This document shows, in pieces, positions 19,756 through 35,204 of a stretch of DNA of 43,508 nt. Made by a program: the position numbers and the translations under genes. Position 1 is the first letter of the stretch, and each line of letters starts with the position of its first letter. The stretch comes from a virus, in IMG/VR virus record IMGVR_UViG_3300036861_000339, positions 1-43,508 of that record; one strand, given 5' to 3'. Below the pieces are notes generated by a model. It was not told the origin of the DNA. It was given only the letters and a program-made list of their open reading frames with translations, and did not search any database.

Positions 19756-19999
19756 TATCACTCAACCCGTCGCTGAAGTCATCACTGGTGGAAACTTAGT
19801 TGCGAAGCTAACTACGAAGAAGCTTATTAAGGACTTCATCGTAGATGTGATTACGAGTCTGCCAGTTTCTGGAGTCACAATCACCGTTGCCAATATCCAA
19901 GACAAAGCAGCTTTAGTAGCTGTTCTCTTTGGAATTGGGAATGCGGTCGGTGGAGCAGTCCTTAGATTAGTTCTAAGGTGGGCTCAATCTCCCGACTGA
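19748..19999 (+). CDS. Small hydrophobic protein at the end of the late operon
   Basis: An 83-aa protein with two moderately hydrophobic stretches (IKDFIVDVITSLPVSGVTIT and ALVAVLFGIGNAVGGAVLRL). It is the last plus-strand gene of the late region and its 3' end overlaps the convergent nuclease gene by 16 bases. A further holin-like or membrane role is possible. No family recognised. Confidence 0.6.
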   Translation: MPDITQPVAEVITGGNLVAKLTTKKLIKDFIVDVITSLPVSGVTITVANIQDKAALVAVLFGIGNAVGGAVLRLVLRWAQSPD

Positions 20000-20334
20000 G
20001 GCGGCTTGGAATTACGCTTGCGCAATCGGGCCTCCTGGATTGCGTCGAGCCGGTCGAGAACGGCGAGAGCCATCTCGACTGAATGGACCCGGTGAGCAAC
20101 GCCGCCTGCTTGCCGGGTCTTTCTAATCCTGTCAGCTTGGAGGTCAGTAAGTTTCTCCTCGGCATCTCTTTTGACCTCGAGGGCGACGTACCTACCAAGA
20201 TAGCAACCGACGATATCTAGGCGCCCTCTTGCCTCATACGGGTTGCCTTGAGTATTGTCCCACAGTCCCCCCCTCGCGCGCAAAGCCTTCAGAATCTTTT
20301 TCTGAACGGTGCGTTCGAGGGGGGGTTTTTTCAT
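19984..20334 (-). CDS. VRR-NUC domain nuclease
   Basis: A 116-aa protein of about the usual size for stand-alone phage VRR-NUC proteins. It has the N-terminal EXTVQKKIL-type helix, then NPYEARGRLDIVGCYLGR with the metal-binding Asp, and ALEVKRDAEEKLTDLQ with the Glu-x-Lys pair of the PD-(D/E)XK core. GGAG lies six bases before the ATG, and the ATG overlaps the stop of the 33-aa gene upstream (ATGA). It is likely to act on replication or recombination intermediates. Confidence 0.85.
   Translation of the reverse strand: MKKPPLERTVQKKILKALRARGGLWDNTQGNPYEARGRLDIVGCYLGRYVALEVKRDAEEKLTDLQADRIRKTRQAGGVAHRVHSVEMALAVLDRLDAIQEARLRKRNSKPPQSGD
20267..20331 (+). terminator. Candidate rho-independent terminator of the late operon
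   Basis: On the plus strand, CCCCCCCTCG (20267-20276) pairs perfectly with CGAGGGGGGG (20316-20325), followed at once by six T. The loop holds a second 7-bp hairpin (TTCAGAA with TTCTGAA). It lies about 270 bases after the last late gene, inside the N-terminal codons of the convergent nuclease gene, where it encodes Lys-Lys-Pro-Pro and Arg-Gly-Gly. The long loop (about 39 nt) is unusual. Confidence 0.5.
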
Positions 20335-23153: not shown

Positions 23154-23182
23154 ATTATAAGACAACACGTAATCCCTGTCAA
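23154..23182 (-). promoter_or_regulatory. Sigma-70 promoter for the recombination block
   Basis: On the minus strand TTGACA (23182-23177) and TATAAT (23159-23154) are both perfect and are separated by 17 bases. The -10 is preceded by GTTGTCT, shared with three other promoters in the window. The predicted start lies about 14 bases before the GTG of the nuclease gene. The -35 overlaps the stop codon of the upstream P-loop gene. Confidence 0.85.
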
Positions 23183-23478
23183 TCTTCCGTAATTGACACA
23201 GCGGCCACATTATGATGACCGGTGATATAGTGTAGATGTTGATCCAAGTCTTCAAGGAAGAGTTTAGGATGTCTACCATTCAGCATTCCGTTCTTGATTT
23301 GTCCCACAGTGATAAAGCGATTCTTATCAATGTCAGGAGCAATCTGCCGCATCCGGTCCGTCATCATTCCATTGAGACATACCATTATTGCATCTTCACC
23401 AGCCTCGAGAGCTGACCTCATTACTGTCAACATTTCAGTAGTTTTACCAGTAGCTCGGTTCCCCGAGATTACACGCAT
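23179..23478 (-). CDS. Short P-loop NTPase
   Basis: 99 aa from the ATG at 23478, which shares TGATG with the polymerase stop; an in-frame start 15 bases earlier is less likely. The Walker A motif is GNRATGKT near the N terminus, followed by a helix and the strand DAIMVCLNG. A possible Walker B is KLFLEDLD. At this length it is a minimal P-loop core, too short for a helicase. It may assist the polymerase or recombination genes that flank it. Confidence 0.7.
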   Translation of the reverse strand: MRVISGNRATGKTTEMLTVMRSALEAGEDAIMVCLNGMMTDRMRQIAPDIDKNRFITVGQIKNGMLNGRHPKLFLEDLDQHLHYITGHHNVAAVSITED

Positions 23479-25889
23479 CAGTGTTCTCCCCAATGCTGAC
23501 CGATCGTGACATCCGCTTCGATCGGAACAGTTGGACTATACCCGAACAGCTTCTTCAATGGCAGGTGCTCCATCACGTGCTTGGTGATTCTGGCTGCTTC
23601 TTCTGCGTACTCCTCTGTGGCTTCTAGGAGGATGGAATCATGAACGTTACCGAGAATCCTACTTCTAGTGTGATCGAGCTTCCTGGAGAGCCTGACCATT
23701 GATAGGACAGTAAGATCGCTCGCAAATCCCTGCACTGGAGAGTTGATAGCTTCTCGTTCAGCTTCTCCTTGAACTCCTTCATCGGTGGAGTTGATATTGG
23801 GAAGGTGTCTAATTCGTCCAATAGGCGAAGAAACTGCACCAATGTTTCGCACGATCCTTCGTTGTCGATTATGCCAATTCTCGAGGGCTCCGTATTGTTT
23901 GAAGAAGGCGTTGCGGTAGGCTTTGGCTTCGTCATCTGTGACCTCTGTCTGGTACTTCTCCTTGGCGTAAATCTTGAATTTCTTCCATCTCATTCCGTAG
24001 AGAAACCCGAAGTTGACAGCCTTAGCCATCTTCCTCTCTTCCTTCGTGATTAGTTCTGGAGCTTTGCCAAGAATTTTTGCAGCCGTTTGAAGATGCGGGT
24101 CTTCTCCGTTACGGAAAGCATCTGAGAGGGTTCGGTCTCTGGAAAACATAGCAGCAAGTCTGAGCTCGACTTGAGCAAAATCAGCTTCAATGAGACGCCA
24201 CCCAGGTTCTGATCCGATGATACTTCGAATGTAAATATCTCGAGGCACCTGTTGCATGTTTGAGGATAGACGCCCGGTGACAGTACCGGAGAGATTGTAA
24301 GAGGTGTAAAGTCGTGGCTTGCCAGCGATAGCAACTCGGTTAAGCCAATTTCTAGTGTAGGTCGATTCATTCTTCTGCCACTTCCTTAGTTCCATAAGCA
24401 GAGCCACAGCCGGGTGCTTGTCTACCAGTTCAAGAAGAGCTGACTCAGCGGTGGACGGCTTCCCTGTGGGCGTGAGCTGGATGATGGGGAGTTTAAGATG
24501 GCCGAAGAACCAACGACCAAGAAATTGAGGCGATCTGAAGTTCGCATTGTCTCTTAGTTCTTCCGGCACCATCTCCAGCATCTCATCATTGACTTGAGCA
24601 ATCTTGTGAAGAATGCTTCGATGACGGCGTTCAAGCCGCTCCATGTCCACAGGGAAGCCGTTCACTTCGATATCAACGAATGCTCGACAAGCGGGCATCG
24701 TCAGTCGAGTAAACAACCTAGCGAGTCTGGGTTGTTTCTTAAGTTCGTCGCGGAAGAGATGGTACAAACGGAGTGTGTAGTCGGCATCTTTTCCGTTGTA
24801 GATAGCAAGTTTACGAAGTGCTGTAGCATCTCCAGAGAAACTGATTCCGGCTTCATATTCATCAGCGCCGAGATATATTCGAGCGAGCGGTTTGAGGCCA
24901 GAGGGTCGGTTCTCATCGAGGAGATGAGCTGCAAGTTTAGTGTCAAAGTGGGCATATAGATGTACTCCTTTCGCTCTCATCCATGCATCATCAAACTTGA
25001 CATTGTGTCCTACCATCTTCTTACCAGCGAGCGCTACGTTAAGCGCATCGTATACTCTTCTGATTGGTATGTCCCAGCGGGTAGCGGGGTGTTCCAACGA
25101 AACAACATAGGCTTTTCCCGGTTCCCATGAGAACGCCACAGTATGAATAAGCCCATTAGGACTCCAAGGATTAAGACCACCTTCGTTTTCATCTGGATCA
25201 CTGCTTCCTGTCTCCACATCGAAAGCGATGGGTGTCTCCACAGTCGCGAGCATCTGACATAGACGCGCGAGGCCCTTAGAACTTTGAACTAACTTACTGT
25301 CAGTTTCCGGGCGACGATCTTCGCCTTTGGTCAGGCGGGCAAATGTCATCAGGTCCGACTTGAAGGACGTCTCTAGCCCTGGATTGCGCAGGACAGCCGC
25401 GGGATGGACGGTCACAAAGGCAGTACGGCCACCTGGCAACTGCTGTGCAGTACCCCTCTTCTTCATTACCCCCGAGGTCTTCAGGATTGAACGAAGTGCC
25501 GCGTTACCCATAACGAGAATGTAATCTGGCTTGACGATCTCAAGTTCAGACTGCATGTAAGTTGAGCACGCCTTGATCTGTCCGTTAGTCGGTGTTGCGT
25601 TATCAGGCGGCCGGCACCTAACTGAGTTCGTAATGTAGACAGTTTCTCTTGGGAGCCCGACTTCCGCAAGAACTCGATCCAGATACCTGCCTGCGGGTCC
25701 GCTGAAAGGACGAGCAATATCATCCTCCCTCGCACCTGGAGCTTCTCCCACAAGCATGATACGAGTTGGAACTGGCCCATCTCCCAAGAGACACACGGAT
25801 TGGGCAGATTTGTAGAGGGGACAGAGCCTACAGTCTTCGTTCCTAACAGGGAGCCATACCTTCTTTCTTGCTTCTGGATTAAGGGGCAT
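23478..25889 (-). CDS. Family-A DNA polymerase fused to an Fe-S uracil-DNA glycosylase-like domain
   Basis: An 803-aa replicative polymerase. Residues 1-~190 are a family-4/5 UDG-like domain: cysteines 20, 23, 92 and 108 in the Fe-S spacing, motif GEAPGAREDD, and VHPAA. Residues ~215-385 are a 3'-5' exonuclease (DVE at 224-226, HNVKFD at 295-300, DADYT at 368-372). Residues ~390-803 are the palm and fingers: motif A EADFAQVELRL (Asp570), motif B KMAKAVNFGFLYG, motif C NVHDSI. All catalytic polymerase residues are present. UDG-like/PolA fusions occur in some phages, including SPO1-type as I recall. The N-terminal domain may recognise uracil or a modified base, or may be structural. Confidence 0.95.
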   Translation of the reverse strand: MPLNPEARKKVWLPVRNEDCRLCPLYKSAQSVCLLGDGPVPTRIMLVGEAPGAREDDIARPFSGPAGRYLDRVLAEVGLPRETVYITNSVRCRPPDNATPTNGQIKACSTYMQSELEIVKPDYILVMGNAALRSILKTSGVMKKRGTAQQLPGGRTAFVTVHPAAVLRNPGLETSFKSDLMTFARLTKGEDRRPETDSKLVQSSKGLARLCQMLATVETPIAFDVETGSSDPDENEGGLNPWSPNGLIHTVAFSWEPGKAYVVSLEHPATRWDIPIRRVYDALNVALAGKKMVGHNVKFDDAWMRAKGVHLYAHFDTKLAAHLLDENRPSGLKPLARIYLGADEYEAGISFSGDATALRKLAIYNGKDADYTLRLYHLFRDELKKQPRLARLFTRLTMPACRAFVDIEVNGFPVDMERLERRHRSILHKIAQVNDEMLEMVPEELRDNANFRSPQFLGRWFFGHLKLPIIQLTPTGKPSTAESALLELVDKHPAVALLMELRKWQKNESTYTRNWLNRVAIAGKPRLYTSYNLSGTVTGRLSSNMQQVPRDIYIRSIIGSEPGWRLIEADFAQVELRLAAMFSRDRTLSDAFRNGEDPHLQTAAKILGKAPELITKEERKMAKAVNFGFLYGMRWKKFKIYAKEKYQTEVTDDEAKAYRNAFFKQYGALENWHNRQRRIVRNIGAVSSPIGRIRHLPNINSTDEGVQGEAEREAINSPVQGFASDLTVLSMVRLSRKLDHTRSRILGNVHDSILLEATEEYAEEAARITKHVMEHLPLKKLFGYSPTVPIEADVTIGQHWGEH

Positions 25890-30233: not shown

Positions 30234-30262
30234 ATTATAAGACAGCCGCATCACCATGTCAA
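30234..30262 (-). promoter_or_regulatory. Sigma-70 promoter for the nucleotide-metabolism block
   Basis: Perfect TTGACA (30262-30257) and TATAAT (30239-30234) with a 17-base spacer ending CTGTCT. The kinase ATG is about 19 bases below the -10, with AGGAGG between. The -35 overlaps the stop of the SNF2 gene. Same design as the other three promoters. Confidence 0.85.
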
Positions 30263-31803
30263 GGACGTAAGATCTGCGGGTCGTGTAGAATCATCTTAGC
30301 AATGTTCTTCTTTTCCTCTAAAGCTATATACTGGAGAGCATCGATTGATCGAGGAACTACCAAGCGATAATAAGTAATCTTCTCGTGAATCTCTGCACCC
30401 GCCCTGTGGAGACGATCCTGTGACTGCGCATAGTTAATGAACGAGGTATTCATCGAGTAGTAGATAGCCACAGGGGCCTTGAACAACTCAATTCCCTCAG
30501 ACCCCGACTGCACCTGAGCGATGAAAACTCTTACCTTCTCCCCATTCTGAAACTCCTCTTGATAACTGTCACGGAGGTGAGTGGGGACACTTCCGGACAG
30601 TATTCTATGTTCAATCTTCATTTTAGTTAGTTGCTTGTCTAATCTCTCGATGTCAGCAATGAATCTGACAAAGATAACAACCTTGTGTCCATCCGCAATT
30701 ACTAGGTCCTGCAACAGATCGCTGCAGACTTTAAGCTTTGCGTCATCGATGATACGGATGATACCCGCTTCATCTTTTAAGAAGCCAGAAGTGATTTGAG
30801 ACAGACGAAGTAGCTTGGTAAGAACTATCTTTGCAGAAGAGACTACACCAGTCTCAATCTCTACAATCATCTCGGTTGCCATCTTCTGGTAAATCTGAAT
30901 CGCACGGTAAGAAAGTGTCACCGGTACGTCAACCCACACTTTTGGAGGTAAGTCGAAACACTGATCCTTGCGCACTCGATAGGACCAGGTACGCACCTTC
31001 GTGATCAACTCTTGGATGTGACGGTATCCTTTAAGTTGATGCTTACCCCATCCGCCCCAGATGCCGTATCGATTTCGGAAGTTCTTCCAGTGACTCCTGA
31101 TATCGCCTTGCCCGAAGATGCGTTCGTCTAGGACTCGGAACTGTCCGAATGCGTCGAGGGGCGCTTTCGTGATGGGTGTGCCGGTGAGGATGAGAGTTTG
31201 GTCGACTTCTCTTCCGATCCTGTAACCCGACCGTGACTGTTTAGAGGTCGGATTCTTGAGACGATGGGACTCATCGAAGATGACAAGATCAGGCTTCCAC
31301 TTGAGGATGCTAGCCTCAACGCTACCTCCCTCGTCAGCTTCTCGCCAGATGCCCTCATAATTGATGATGAGATAAGTAAGTTTAGTCTCATCAGGGTGGC
31401 GCAGAATTCGTGCGAGATCGGCCATACGTTCCCTTGTAGAACCTTCAAGTCGGAAGGCACGAGAAGGGACGTTGGAATGTTGACGGATCTGACGTGGCCA
31501 AACTCCCAACACTGAAAGCGGAGCAACGACAAGAACTCGTCTGACTCCGAAATTGTAGAATCCGATGCCTGCCCAATCAATTGCTACCTTCGTCTTTCCG
31601 GTGCCCATCTCCATGAACAAAGCACAACGGCCTCCAAGCCGCATCACCTTATTGAGGGCACGCTTCTGGTGGGAATAAGGCTTCGTCTTGAAGCTATACT
31701 TAGGTTTCTTCGTCGGTGTCAGAATCAGTTTCTTCAATATCGTCATCGCTAAGGAAGGTGCGATGGCAGGCGGGGTTTCCGGAAGCATTAATTGTTCCGT
31801 CAT
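30259..31803 (-). CDS. SNF2-family (SF2) DNA helicase/translocase
   Basis: 514 aa from the ATG at 31803, which has AGGTGG upstream; 31821 is an alternative. Motif I is MEMGTGKT, motif Ia VVAPLSVLGVW, motif II DESHRLKNPTS, motif III ILTGTPI. The second RecA lobe has VVIFVRFIADIERL, IAQVQSGSEGIEL and QSQDRLHRAG, the QxxxRxxR motif VI. The insert pattern matches phage SNF2-like helicases. It likely remodels DNA or protein-DNA complexes in replication. Its start overlaps the small Zn gene upstream. Confidence 0.9.
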   Translation of the reverse strand: MTEQLMLPETPPAIAPSLAMTILKKLILTPTKKPKYSFKTKPYSHQKRALNKVMRLGGRCALFMEMGTGKTKVAIDWAGIGFYNFGVRRVLVVAPLSVLGVWPRQIRQHSNVPSRAFRLEGSTRERMADLARILRHPDETKLTYLIINYEGIWREADEGGSVEASILKWKPDLVIFDESHRLKNPTSKQSRSGYRIGREVDQTLILTGTPITKAPLDAFGQFRVLDERIFGQGDIRSHWKNFRNRYGIWGGWGKHQLKGYRHIQELITKVRTWSYRVRKDQCFDLPPKVWVDVPVTLSYRAIQIYQKMATEMIVEIETGVVSSAKIVLTKLLRLSQITSGFLKDEAGIIRIIDDAKLKVCSDLLQDLVIADGHKVVIFVRFIADIERLDKQLTKMKIEHRILSGSVPTHLRDSYQEEFQNGEKVRVFIAQVQSGSEGIELFKAPVAIYYSMNTSFINYAQSQDRLHRAGAEIHEKITYYRLVVPRSIDALQYIALEEKKNIAKMILHDPQILRP

Positions 31804-31903
31804 GGACCCACCTACGTTCATCGGAATCTTCGCCCTTGCCCCATGTTTTACCCTCTGTGGACCGTGCCTTCACGTGCACCCAACAGTATCTACATTGCAT
31901 CAT
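31700..31903 (-). CDS. Small zinc-finger-like protein overlapping the helicase gene
   Basis: A 67-aa protein whose ATG overlaps the preceding stop (ATGA). It begins MMQCRYCWVHVKARS and has HDGTINASGNPACHRTF, giving a likely Cys-Cys and Cys/His zinc site, and an acidic tail (DDDIEETDSDTDEET). It overlaps the helicase N-terminal codons by about 100 bases in another frame, which lowers confidence, but the Zn pattern and coupling favour a real gene. Confidence 0.5.
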   Translation of the reverse strand: MMQCRYCWVHVKARSTEGKTWGKGEDSDERRWVHDGTINASGNPACHRTFLSDDDIEETDSDTDEET

Positions 31904-32361
31904 CGCCGCTTCCTTCTAATACTGCCTTTCACAATTCGTCCTTCCTTCTTGTTCTTCTTCAACTGTTCCTTTCGTGCTGCTCGTAGTTCTTGCTGCATCT
32001 CAATACGAATGACTAATTCTGGATTGTACATCCGCACATAAGCATCTTTGATACTGATGCTGCAGACGGTACATCTTGGTAACGATGGAGTATAGAAGTC
32101 GGCATAGTGAACTTCAGCCTCTTCAAATACCCGCCACTTCACGCAGTAAGGACACCACAGGAGGCCGTGTTGAGGTGAAATTGCTCGTTTGGGTGGGGGT
32201 GGAAATGCCTGACGAGCACTGATCACGTCAACTACAGCGATGCCGTGGAGCTTCAGCTTCTTGCCATACTCCACGGCAGATTTGGGGGAATTGCCCTCGA
32301 ACTCCTTGACGAGAAGCTTTCCCTCGTCTCTCCATTGAGTTTTCCAGGCGTTTTCCATCAT
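31900..32361 (-). CDS. Zinc-ribbon protein with basic tail
   Basis: A 153-aa protein. The middle has LLWCPYCVKWRVF and LPRCTVCSISIKDAY, two CxxC knuckles that form a zinc ribbon. The C terminus is strongly basic (KEQLKKNKKEGRIVKG, RRKRR). It is the first gene below the structured leader RNA, with AGGGGAG before ATGATG. Nucleic-acid binding is likely; it may act on transcription or on the RNA itself (inference). Confidence 0.7.
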   Translation of the reverse strand: MMENAWKTQWRDEGKLLVKEFEGNSPKSAVEYGKKLKLHGIAVVDVISARQAFPPPPKRAISPQHGLLWCPYCVKWRVFEEAEVHYADFYTPSLPRCTVCSISIKDAYVRMYNPELVIRIEMQQELRAARKEQLKKNKKEGRIVKGSIRRKRR

Positions 32362-32387
32362 TCTCGTCTCCCCTGCTATGAGATTGG

Positions 32388-32888
32388 GCCTCCTGCCAGC
32401 TTATCGCGGCTGGAACCTCACGGTTTCGGCCATTACCTCAGGAGGCATAGCGAAGGGTAGTAGTTGGCCTCGTTAAATCAACTCTTCGACATCGGCCATG
32501 CCAGCCTCAAGATCTCCTCGCTGCAGACGAGGTTCCTGACTTCGCTACCCTTCGAGGAGAAGTGAACTAGAACCAGGCCTACCGGTTTAAGCAGAGAACC
32601 CGCCGCATTGGTGAGATTATTCGAGTTACTACCCGTAGGAACTTGCTCGGGCGTGTAGACTCCTACTTCCCACTCTGCCTATTCACTTCTTCCCGAAGAG
32701 TACGAAGGGCACCGTATCCTCGTGAGACCGATGCCCTTCGAGAAGAGAGTGACCTGAATGGGGCACTGCCTAGAAAGGGCTATCCCCGACCGGACTAGTA
32801 AGGCCGATCGTTCACTCTCTTCTCGAAGGTGTGGACCAGACGATTCGCTTCACCGTGGGGGGAGACGATTCCACCACGTCCGGTCCAC
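32388..32888 (-). ncRNA. Large highly structured RNA (about 500 nt)
   Basis: No open frame on either strand. Read on the minus strand from a start predicted at 32888, the RNA begins directly with a stem, GTGGACC (32888-32882) with GGTCCAC (32837-32831). Then follow an 18-bp perfect helix (32829-32812 with 32752-32735), an 8-bp helix (32740-32733 with 32710-32703) sharing six bases with it, a 9-bp helix (32690-32682 with 32566-32558), a 10-bp helix (32554-32545 with 32460-32451), and a final 8-bp helix (32446-32439 with 32395-32388) enclosing CCAGC/GCTGG. This resembles ornate large phage RNAs such as GOLLD or ROOL in style; identity is untested. It may also be the leader of the downstream operon. 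Confidence 0.7.
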
Positions 32889-32894
32889 TTACGC

Positions 32895-32923
32895 ATTATA
32901 AGACAGCCCGTATCTTATGTCAA
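32895..32923 (-). promoter_or_regulatory. Sigma-70 promoter of the structured RNA
   Basis: Perfect TTGACA (32923-32918) and TATAAT (32900-32895), 17-base spacer ending GCTGTCT. The predicted start coincides with the first base of the first RNA stem. Divergent from the promoter at 32953. Confidence 0.88.
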
Positions 32924-32952
32924 GGACTAAATTTAATCTGAGAACAAGAATA

Positions 32953-32981
32953 TTGACAGGGAAACCGTGTTGTCTTATAAT
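32953..32981 (+). promoter_or_regulatory. Sigma-70 promoter of the rightward early operon
   Basis: Perfect TTGACA (32953-32958) and TATAAT (32976-32981), 17-base spacer ending GTTGTCT. It faces away from the minus-strand RNA promoter; the two -35 boxes are 29 bases apart, so one regulator could control both. Confidence 0.88.
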
Positions 32982-33035
32982 ATCTCAGTCGGGCGACGCG
33001 CGACATAATGACCACGCGTAAGGGAGATTGGCCGC

Positions 33036-33242
33036 ATGGCAACTCTAACGGCACGAGAGGTAGGTGACGCTCTCGGACTTGAGCACATCGAAGTCATTCG
33101 GCGTATTCGTCGAGGGGAAATTGAAGCCACCAAGAAGGGGTGGTTCTGGCTCGTCAAGAAAGAGGAGGTAGAACTTGTGAAGAAGAAGCCTTGGTACAAG
33201 AGTTTGATGGAGCTACGAGCTCGCCGCCAGACATCCGACTAG
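33036..33242 (+). CDS. Small helix-turn-helix (excisionase/MerR-like) DNA-binding protein
   Basis: A 68-aa protein: LTAREVGDALGLEHIEVIRR is a winged-HTH of the excisionase type, followed by the wing GWFWLVKKEEVELV and a basic tail. AAGGGAG lies upstream. As the first gene after the divergent promoter pair it may regulate those promoters or help load the replication protein encoded next. Confidence 0.75.
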   Translation: MATLTAREVGDALGLEHIEVIRRIRRGEIEATKKGWFWLVKKEEVELVKKKPWYKSLMELRARRQTSD

Positions 33243-33245
33243 TCA

Positions 33246-35204
33246 ATGATGGCAGTAGGAAACGCACACCAGTTTCTCGCTGCTGTTTGGGGACAACAAT
33301 CAGGCTACGTCTTTCTTCCATATAAAGATCTTGACAAGAATTGGAATGAGACTAGAGCCGTTCCCTACGATGGCGACACGGACATTCTCCCCAACATCGA
33401 GGAGTTTCGCGGCGACATCTATTTCTGTCCACAGCTCTTCTCCAAGCCCAAGCGGCTAAAGGAATACGCCCTCCCTACGCACTGGCTGTGGGCCGATCTG
33501 GACCCTATCCATCCCGACAAATTAAAGATCAAACCAACTATCGCTTGGGAGAGTTCTCCGGGACGCTTCCAGGCCCTGTGGTTGTTGGATAAGGAGATTC
33601 CAGCAGAAGATGCAGCACAACTTTCACGACGCATTGCATTCTCTGAGGGTGCGGATAAGGGCGGCTGGGATGTCACTCAGGTCCTACGTATTCCAGGCAG
33701 TCGTAATCATAAATATAAGATGGCCCCGCCTGTCAAGCTTCTTTGGGCTGCCAAGAATGCTTACTCTACTCGAGCCATCAAAGCCGCGTATCCCCGCGTC
33801 AATGGACATTCTCACGAGTCAGCAGCTACTGGAAATTGGCCGGCAGTTTCCGAAGCCGCTATTCAATCTGCAATTGCCGGTCTTCCCCTTGGCTACCGAC
33901 GACGACTTACTCAAGATCCTGCGCTGGCGGATCGAAGTAAGGAACTTCAACTTCTTGCCAGAGACCTTATCCGCAAGAGAATACAACCAGAGGTGGTTGC
34001 GCACATTCTACAGCGGGCTTCTGTAAACAAGTTTGCCGGACGAAAAAACGAACACGAAATCCTCCTAAAGCAGGTCGCCGACGCAGAAATCGCTGTCGCT
34101 GCGACCACTAAGTTTAAGGTGCCCAAACCTCGGGCGAAGCCCTCTGAAGATGACGGTCTGCTTGAACAGATGGAGGTTCATAAGTGGGCCGGATTCATGC
34201 AGATTCCTACAAGATTGGAATGGTTAGTAGATGATGCCTGGGTGGATCGATCTGTTGGATTTATCAGCGGTCGAAGTAAATCCTATAAGACTTGGATTGC
34301 GCTTGATCTTGCACTCAGTTTGGTGTCGGGAGAACCATTTCTTGGCCGTCACCAAGTTAGGCGATCTGGGCCTGTACTGCTCATCCAAGAAGAGGATCCT
34401 GCTCCGGTCCTACAAGAACGTCTTCGGCTCATTGCCAAACAGAAAGGAATGCTCCCGAAACTAGAGATTGCGCGAAGCGACCTCATCCGTATTACGTATC
34501 CCGACTACCCTCTGCACATTATCAACCTGCAAGGGTTCAATCTCGGAGCGGAAGAGAAGATCGATCAAGTTCGTCGCCTCATCGCTGAGATTAATCCAGT
34601 CGCCGTCATCATGGATCCCCTCATTGTTATGCTCGCAGGTACTGGAGCTGACGAGAATAAAGCCACAGAGATTTCCATGGTACTCCAGGCAGTTAAGATG
34701 TGGAGGGAGGAATTTGGATGCGCGGTCATCATTGTCCACCACTGGAACAAGGGAAAGATCGAAGAGGGCGAGAGATTCGCTCAACACATGTATGGGTCTT
34801 TCGTCTTCCATGCGTGGTTGGAAAGTGCGCTGCACGTGATGCCGATCATCGAGGAAGAGCAAGAGAAGATCAACGAGGTCAAAGTAGAGAGGGAGTTCAA
34901 AGCCGCACCATCGGGTCGAGCGATGCAGTTAAGGTTCGAAATTGACTCGTCTAAGAACTACACTTATGAAGTAGTTCATCTGGATGAGAAGACGCTGAGT
35001 CCGATGGGGCAACAACTACTAGACCTCGTCACAGAAGCTGGACCACAGGGAACAACCACCCCAGAACTCGTTGCTGTCAGTGGTCACCCTCGGCCGAAAG
35101 TGGTTGAACAACTTCGCCGTCTCGTGAAGACGAAGCAGGTAGTAGTCATCGAGAAGGGAGGCGGCAGAGGTAAATCCACGAAATATGGAGTTCCTTCCGA
35201 ATGA
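33246..35204 (+). CDS. Primase-helicase: AEP/RepB-type primase plus RepA-like RecA-fold ATPase
   Basis: A 652-aa fusion. Residues ~1-190 are an archaeo-eukaryotic primase-like domain with the DxD in LWADLDP (84-86), SSPGRFQALWLLD, and RIPGSRNHKY. A helical linker follows. From ~315 comes a RepA-like ATPase: Walker A GRSKSYKTW (~340), the EED of VLLIQEEDP, Walker B AVIMDPLIV and IIVHHWNKG. The C-terminal ~75 residues form a winged helix (TTPELVAVSGHPRPKVVEQL). It probably primes and unwinds at the phage origin. The start lies just after the HTH gene; its ribosome site is weak, suggesting coupling. Confidence 0.85.
   Translation: MMAVGNAHQFLAAVWGQQSGYVFLPYKDLDKNWNETRAVPYDGDTDILPNIEEFRGDIYFCPQLFSKPKRLKEYALPTHWLWADLDPIHPDKLKIKPTIAWESSPGRFQALWLLDKEIPAEDAAQLSRRIAFSEGADKGGWDVTQVLRIPGSRNHKYKMAPPVKLLWAAKNAYSTRAIKAAYPRVNGHSHESAATGNWPAVSEAAIQSAIAGLPLGYRRRLTQDPALADRSKELQLLARDLIRKRIQPEVVAHILQRASVNKFAGRKNEHEILLKQVADAEIAVAATTKFKVPKPRAKPSEDDGLLEQMEVHKWAGFMQIPTRLEWLVDDAWVDRSVGFISGRSKSYKTWIALDLALSLVSGEPFLGRHQVRRSGPVLLIQEEDPAPVLQERLRLIAKQKGMLPKLEIARSDLIRITYPDYPLHIINLQGFNLGAEEKIDQVRRLIAEINPVAVIMDPLIVMLAGTGADENKATEISMVLQAVKMWREEFGCAVIIVHHWNKGKIEEGERFAQHMYGSFVFHAWLESALHVMPIIEEEQEKINEVKVEREFKAAPSGRAMQLRFEIDSSKNYTYEVVHLDEKTLSPMGQQLLDLVTEAGPQGTTTPELVAVSGHPRPKVVEQLRRLVKTKQVVVIEKGGGRGKSTKYGVPSE

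Follow-up and report, generated by a model that had tools for sequence, protein, structure and literature searches.

In a 43.5-kb virus record, IMGVR_UViG_3300036861_000339, which we analysed over its whole length and refer to as the window, a pair of divergent early operons starts at 32.9 kb, both with their own sigma-70 promoter. On the side of the operon that encodes a helicase, the promoter is followed by a gene-free stretch of about 500 nt in which an earlier note, made from the letters of the sequence, had seen a possible new large phage RNA, highly structured and recalling GOLLD and ROOL. The locus raises the question of whether this structure is held by selection and, if so, what kind of RNA carries it.

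Organization of the divergent early operons

The perfect promoter that the earlier note ascribed to the RNA is present (12 of 12 consensus positions, as in the divergent promoter; Table 1). The helicase-side transcript is predicted to begin at 32888 on the (-) strand, on base 1 of a 12-bp stem (GUGGACCGGACG/CGUCUGGUCCAC, with one G-U pair), as had been claimed; the limits proposed at the time, 32362-32890, enclose the right region, with an outer end set 2 nt too far. All transcription start sites discussed here, in the window and in its relatives, are predicted from promoters. The leader comprises the first 527 nt of the (-) transcript, up to the AUG of the 153-aa gene, and no terminator was found in the window between the structured RNA and this gene. 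The primase-side leader of the window contains only a weak hairpin, with a 6-bp helix at +1.

Four perfect TTGACA-17-TATAAT promoters occur in the window, the helicase-side promoter being one of them, and the word GTCTTATAAT is present in all four. Elsewhere in the window, a likely rightward terminator at 20267-20330 (+), CCCCCCCTCG...CGAGGGGGGGTTTTTT, lies in a region with a z score of -6.7; its hairpin overlaps the first codons of a 116-aa gene (19987-20334, (-)) that matches the phrog_93 endonuclease and starts within the terminator. The gene at 23478-25889 (-) encodes a DNA polymerase A that carries, besides a 3'-5' exonuclease domain, a uracil-DNA glycosylase domain at its N terminus.

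Table 1. Positions of the leader domains, promoters and genes in the window
Feature	Position	Strand	Remarks
D1, 5'-terminal hairpin	32831..32888	(-)	12-bp stem from +1; apical loop CUCCCCCC
D2, branched domain	32735..32829	(-)	closed by 18-bp perfect helix; one nt after D1
D3, hairpin CGAAGGGCAUCG/CGGUGCCCUUCG	32703..32740	(-)	32735-32740 common to D3 and the 18-bp helix
D4, large branched domain	32547..32701	(-)	base helix AGAAGUGAA/UUCACUUCU, sequence-conserved in L165
D5, element common to window and L165	32451..32554	(-)	helix P1 and hairpin P2
D6, final hairpin GCCUCCUG/CAGGAGGC	32388..32446	(-)	
Ribosome-binding region AUAGCAGGGGAGACGAG	32363..32379	(-)	before AUG 32361; predicted paired with 32457-32447
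Sigma-70 promoter TTGACA-17-TATAAT, helicase-side early operon	32895..32923	(-)	12/12 consensus match
Divergent promoter, primase-side operon	32953..32981	(+)	12/12
First gene of helicase-side operon, 153-aa protein	31900..32361	(-)	
SNF2-type helicase	30259..31821	(-)	downstream of 153-aa gene; 55-71% identity in close relatives
Primase-side operon, 68-aa HTH_17-like protein and RepB-primase/AAA_25 protein	33036..35204	(+)	queries for relatives
Other perfect promoters	23154-23182 and 30234-30262	(-)	internal to leftward operon, without strong leader hairpin

Fold of the window leader

Folding of the 529-nt region gives z scores of -5.0 on the (-) strand and -4.2 on the (+) strand, with zero shuffles equally stable. 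The 18-bp perfect helix 32829-32812/32752-32735, which closes a branched domain, is longer than any perfect inverted repeat found in 300 dinucleotide shuffles (longest 14, mean 8.5). The reading of the region as a highly structured RNA of about 500 nt thus stands, as do the closing helix and the six bases, 32735-32740, that it was said to share with the helix 32740-32703. Structure alone, however, is no proof, because other windows, some of them coding, score equally low: among 510 windows of 260 nt from the same genome the region ranks third by minimum free energy and only eleventh by z, and coding stretches also fold with z scores of -5 to -7. As far as sequence can tell, it is the comparative evidence given below, rather than folding energy, that makes a structured RNA convincing.

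D1 and D2 are neighbouring stem-loops that together span about 154 nt, and the C6 of the D1 apical loop occupies 32857-32862. Within D5, helix P1 pairs 32554-32545 with 32460-32451, while hairpin P2 pairs 32483-32479 with 32466-32462 around an invariant loop, AUUUAACGAGGC. P1, which covariation supports, competes with the minimum-energy pairing. The word CGAAGGG occurs twice (32740, 32554) and CCCTTCG likewise twice (32709, 32457), so its earlier reported recurrence holds; the exchange of partners through this word that was proposed alongside is possible in the leader.

Leader variation among relatives

Using the primase, helicase and first-gene proteins as queries, we found twelve more uncultivated phages, giving 13 genomes with the window. 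Helicase identity is 55-71% among relatives where the gene is comparable, the next nearest standing at about 40%, and divergent near-consensus promoters lie at the same place in all 13 genomes. With BLASTN the region found no match among 50,697 phage records, an Rfam search of the relatives' leaders matched no family, and a search of GTDB genomes for primase and helicase relatives, made to find the host, returned none.

Helicase-side leaders measure 527 nt in the window, 344 nt in its nearest relative (L165), 235 nt in L096, 180 nt in L087 and 120 nt in L358; those of L088, L089, L090 and L094 are single hairpins of 68-83 nt. In L003, which lies on the same contig as L091, about 260 nt are structured on the helicase side; by eye, a possible 49-aa Cys/His-rich frame (L003 5410-5559, (+)) is placed there between the structured RNA and the homologue of the 153-aa gene. 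L092, L093 and L095 are without a helicase-side leader of this kind; in these three it is the primase-side leader that has a strong hairpin. The tree, in which L358 is not included, sets these three apart from the other genomes; the hairpin thus switches operon between clades, so that no single gene can account for its function. Multi-domain leaders (window and L165, L087, L096, L003) are scattered in the tree among single-hairpin leaders. Given the clade switch and this scatter, we infer that the leader is modular and fast-changing, and that what stays constant in it is pairing at the transcript start, often together with C6.

The variation in leader size and side, together with the missing terminator before the 153-aa gene, argues that the leader acts in cis and not as a free RNA, and we conclude that the RNA very probably forms the cis-acting 5' leader with which the early helicase transcript begins. 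A free-standing large RNA of the GOLLD/ROOL kind, processed out of the leader, would suit the size, the number of helices and the strong promoter. It is nevertheless very improbable: the region matches no Rfam family at gathering score, searches at E up to 5 gave only noise (mir-49, S4-Bacteroidia), the 43.5-kb window contains no tRNA or tmRNA, and several relatives' leaders are reduced to one hairpin.

Comparative evidence for selection

Selection on the leaders is indicated by three features: helices at +1, C6 loops and covarying stems. Of the 13 genomes, 12 have one or both early transcripts opening with a helix of 11 bp or more that starts within 3 nt of +1; counting L091, whose primase-side helix is a weaker one of 11 bp, brings the number to 13. 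Set against shuffles, the +1 helices give a Fisher combined p of about 1e-8 over 26 leaders, about half of which, taken singly, have a +1 helix no better than shuffles; on the helicase side of L003/L091 the helix at +1 is just 7 bp long. Strong +1 hairpins on both sides are found mainly in L088 and L089.

The cumulative GC-skew minimum of the window falls at 32000-34000, at the divergent promoters and beside the primase gene, and could mark a replication origin or plain gene-strand bias. One might accordingly see in the hairpins a DNA-level element, replication-origin hairpins between divergent operons without RNA function; but GC skew tracks gene strand as well, and the hairpins begin at the predicted +1, which in L088 and L089 holds for both directions; this reading is extremely unlikely.

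An apical loop with at least six Cs, sitting on a short stem that varies, is found in 8 of 13 leaders (window, L165, L088, L089, L090, L094 and L096, and L092 on the primase side), compared with 0-1.7% of shuffles, about 0.5%. It sits in the +1 hairpin in seven of these leaders and in the second hairpin in L165. This loop is the only feature that recurs in sequence across leaders, the stem sequences changing freely. Oligo-C is a preferred ligand of Rho, and the recurrence would fit a leader that antagonises or sequesters host Rho, which would bind the C6 loop so that the early transcript is spared Rho-dependent termination. The C6, however, is short, enclosed in a hairpin and missing in 5 of the 13 genomes, and we judge such a role very unlikely.

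Covariation was counted in two pairs of leaders, each count resting on two distinct sequences in which relatedness cannot be averaged out: between the window and L165, 7 of 13 pairs of D5 are double-compensated and none is broken, and between L088 and L089, 4 of 13 pairs of the outer stem are double-compensated and none is broken, with the strands aligned by hand. The signal is lost when the partner strand is slid by 1-3 columns. The AUUUAACGAGGC loop of D5 is identical in the window and L165, and the CGAAGUC/CGAAG flanks are kept. MAFFT alignments of the C6 hairpins were unusable for pair counts.

A D5 signature, CGAAG-N43-73-ATTTAACGAGGC, gave 56 matches in IMG/VR, of which only the already known relative is real (contigs 3300011435 and 3300011437, identical in sequence there). 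In a promoter-plus-C6 scan of IMG/VR the matches listed were mostly tmRNA 3' ends, with at least two true matches, both within the known group. C6-like hairpins at the distant loci L153 and L112 were set aside: no early promoter context was recognised, and L112 resembles a terminator.

The first-gene protein and translational control

The 153-aa protein has a beta-beta-alpha-beta arrangement, a zinc-ribbon-like CPYC/CTVC pattern and an Arg/Lys-rich C-terminal tail. Its predicted fold (pLDDT 90) has no Foldseek match at E <= 0.001, and VIA-align returned common-fold scores only, with Z up to 5.8 over 51 residues. The basic tail is present in 9 of 9 aligned proteins encoded behind a helicase-side leader and absent from both complete proteins without such a leader (L093, L095), a correlation that rests on one split in the tree; by eye, the L358 protein also ends in basic residues. 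The tail may be a lead toward an RNA-binding partner.

This pattern would agree with translational control, in which leader pairings hide or free the ribosome-binding site of the 153-aa gene, possibly driven by binding of the Arg-tailed product. Also in keeping with such control, the Shine-Dalgarno (SD) sequence of the window is predicted to be more than 85% paired with 32457-32452, a strand otherwise in D5-P1, and the ribosome-binding region and the D1 loop are complementary over 10 nt. Against it, the pairing between loop and SD is best with its own partner in just two of seven leaders, the window and L088, and was rejected as a common mechanism; the tail correlation is a single tree split; and hairpins precede other genes too. 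A clean riboswitch-like release was likewise rejected, as enforced folding of D5-P1 does not clearly free the SD, and modelling suggests an SD switch in the window only. We hold translational control to be improbable. A function at the level of the transcript is more likely than one bound to the translation of a single gene.

Proposed protection of the 5' end

RppH and RNase E depend on single-stranded 5' ends, and structure at the 5' end is stabilising (PMC3997798). On this ground we tentatively propose, as the best-supported reading, that the leader stabilises the early mRNA through its base-paired 5' end. The stem at +1 would keep the 5' end of the early message paired and so closed to RppH and RNase E/J, which need a single-stranded end, provided that the host uses these enzymes; the message would consequently last longer.

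Protection of the 5' end would explain the +1 register and the free turnover of the stems. It leaves the C6 loop and D4/D5 unexplained, which implies an additional binding partner; some 530 nt, a C6 loop and an invariant AUUUAACGAGGC loop are more than a stabiliser requires. The C6 loop probably binds a partner, of the host or the phage, for which it would be an added docking site, and in the lineage of the window the D4/D5 domains may be further ones. Candidate partners are RNA polymerase, Rho, the ribosome and the operon's own zinc-ribbon/Arg-tail protein. A bolder proposal, which we regard as rather doubtful, is that of a new RNA family with a 5' C6-loop hairpin and modular extra domains that hijacks a host factor and thereby favours early phage transcripts; the factor would be RNA polymerase, Rho or the ribosome, possibly with the downstream Arg-tailed zinc-ribbon protein as helper.

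Comparison with known structured RNAs

Like GOLLD and ROOL, the RNA of the window belongs to a phage and is large, with many helices (PMC12286853). Those RNAs are longer (659 nt in a ROOL example, over 800 nt in many GOLLD), often lie near tRNA islands, and are free-standing transcripts that form homo-oligomeric cages (PMC12286853). GOLLD and ROOL have Rfam models, whereas the window RNA fits none of the Rfam families, lies far from any tRNA and leads an mRNA; the lack of a terminator before the 153-aa gene argues against a free-standing transcript, and the relatives' leaders span about 70-530 nt, some on the other operon. Of the earlier reading, a selected structured RNA outside Rfam is retained and the likeness to GOLLD/ROOL is given up. 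The most fitting name for it is a new family of phage early-leader RNA, within the known kind of structured 5' leaders and outside Rfam.

The 5'-terminal stabilising stem-loops of the ompA and papA mRNAs share with it a stem at the 5' end, with little or no unpaired tail, before the coding region (PMC3997798). There, at most about 2-3 nt separate the stem from the 5' end; in the window 12 bp start from the predicted +1. The window leader differs in having up to six domains over 530 nt, a phage early operon, a C6 loop and D5, and its stabilising effect is a prediction. If the present reading is true, a phage lineage holds a structured transcript start under selection despite rapid turnover of sequence and size, with the C6 loop as its recurrent signature; the protection or steering of first transcripts by phages could then be studied on a compact, testable system.

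HK022 putL and putR, too, are structured RNAs directly past phage early promoters, with adjacent stem-loops; each put is about 70 nt long with two stem-loops, the two early operons share the sequence, and antitermination proceeds via the beta' zinc-binding domain of RNA polymerase (PMC9378689). The window leader is placed like putL, its structure starting at the predicted +1, D1 and D2 lie one nt apart, and an unpaired loop is conserved amid variable stems, all as expected if early stem-loops bound RNA polymerase and suppressed pausing or termination in cis. In contrast to put, the present leaders span 70-530 nt, strong structure is usually confined to one operon, and the two early leaders of one phage were not seen to have an element in common, the window's primase side having just its 6-bp helix. 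D1 and D2, adjacent as in put, together measure about 154 nt, and several relatives have a single hairpin. In addition, neither early operon has more intrinsic terminators than chance would give, and the operon is also fed by internal 12/12 promoters, at 23182 and 30262. Processive antitermination of the put type is thus unlikely; but should RNA polymerase or Rho prove to be the ligand of the C6 loop, the leader would be a new cis-acting control RNA of interest comparable to that of HK022 put.
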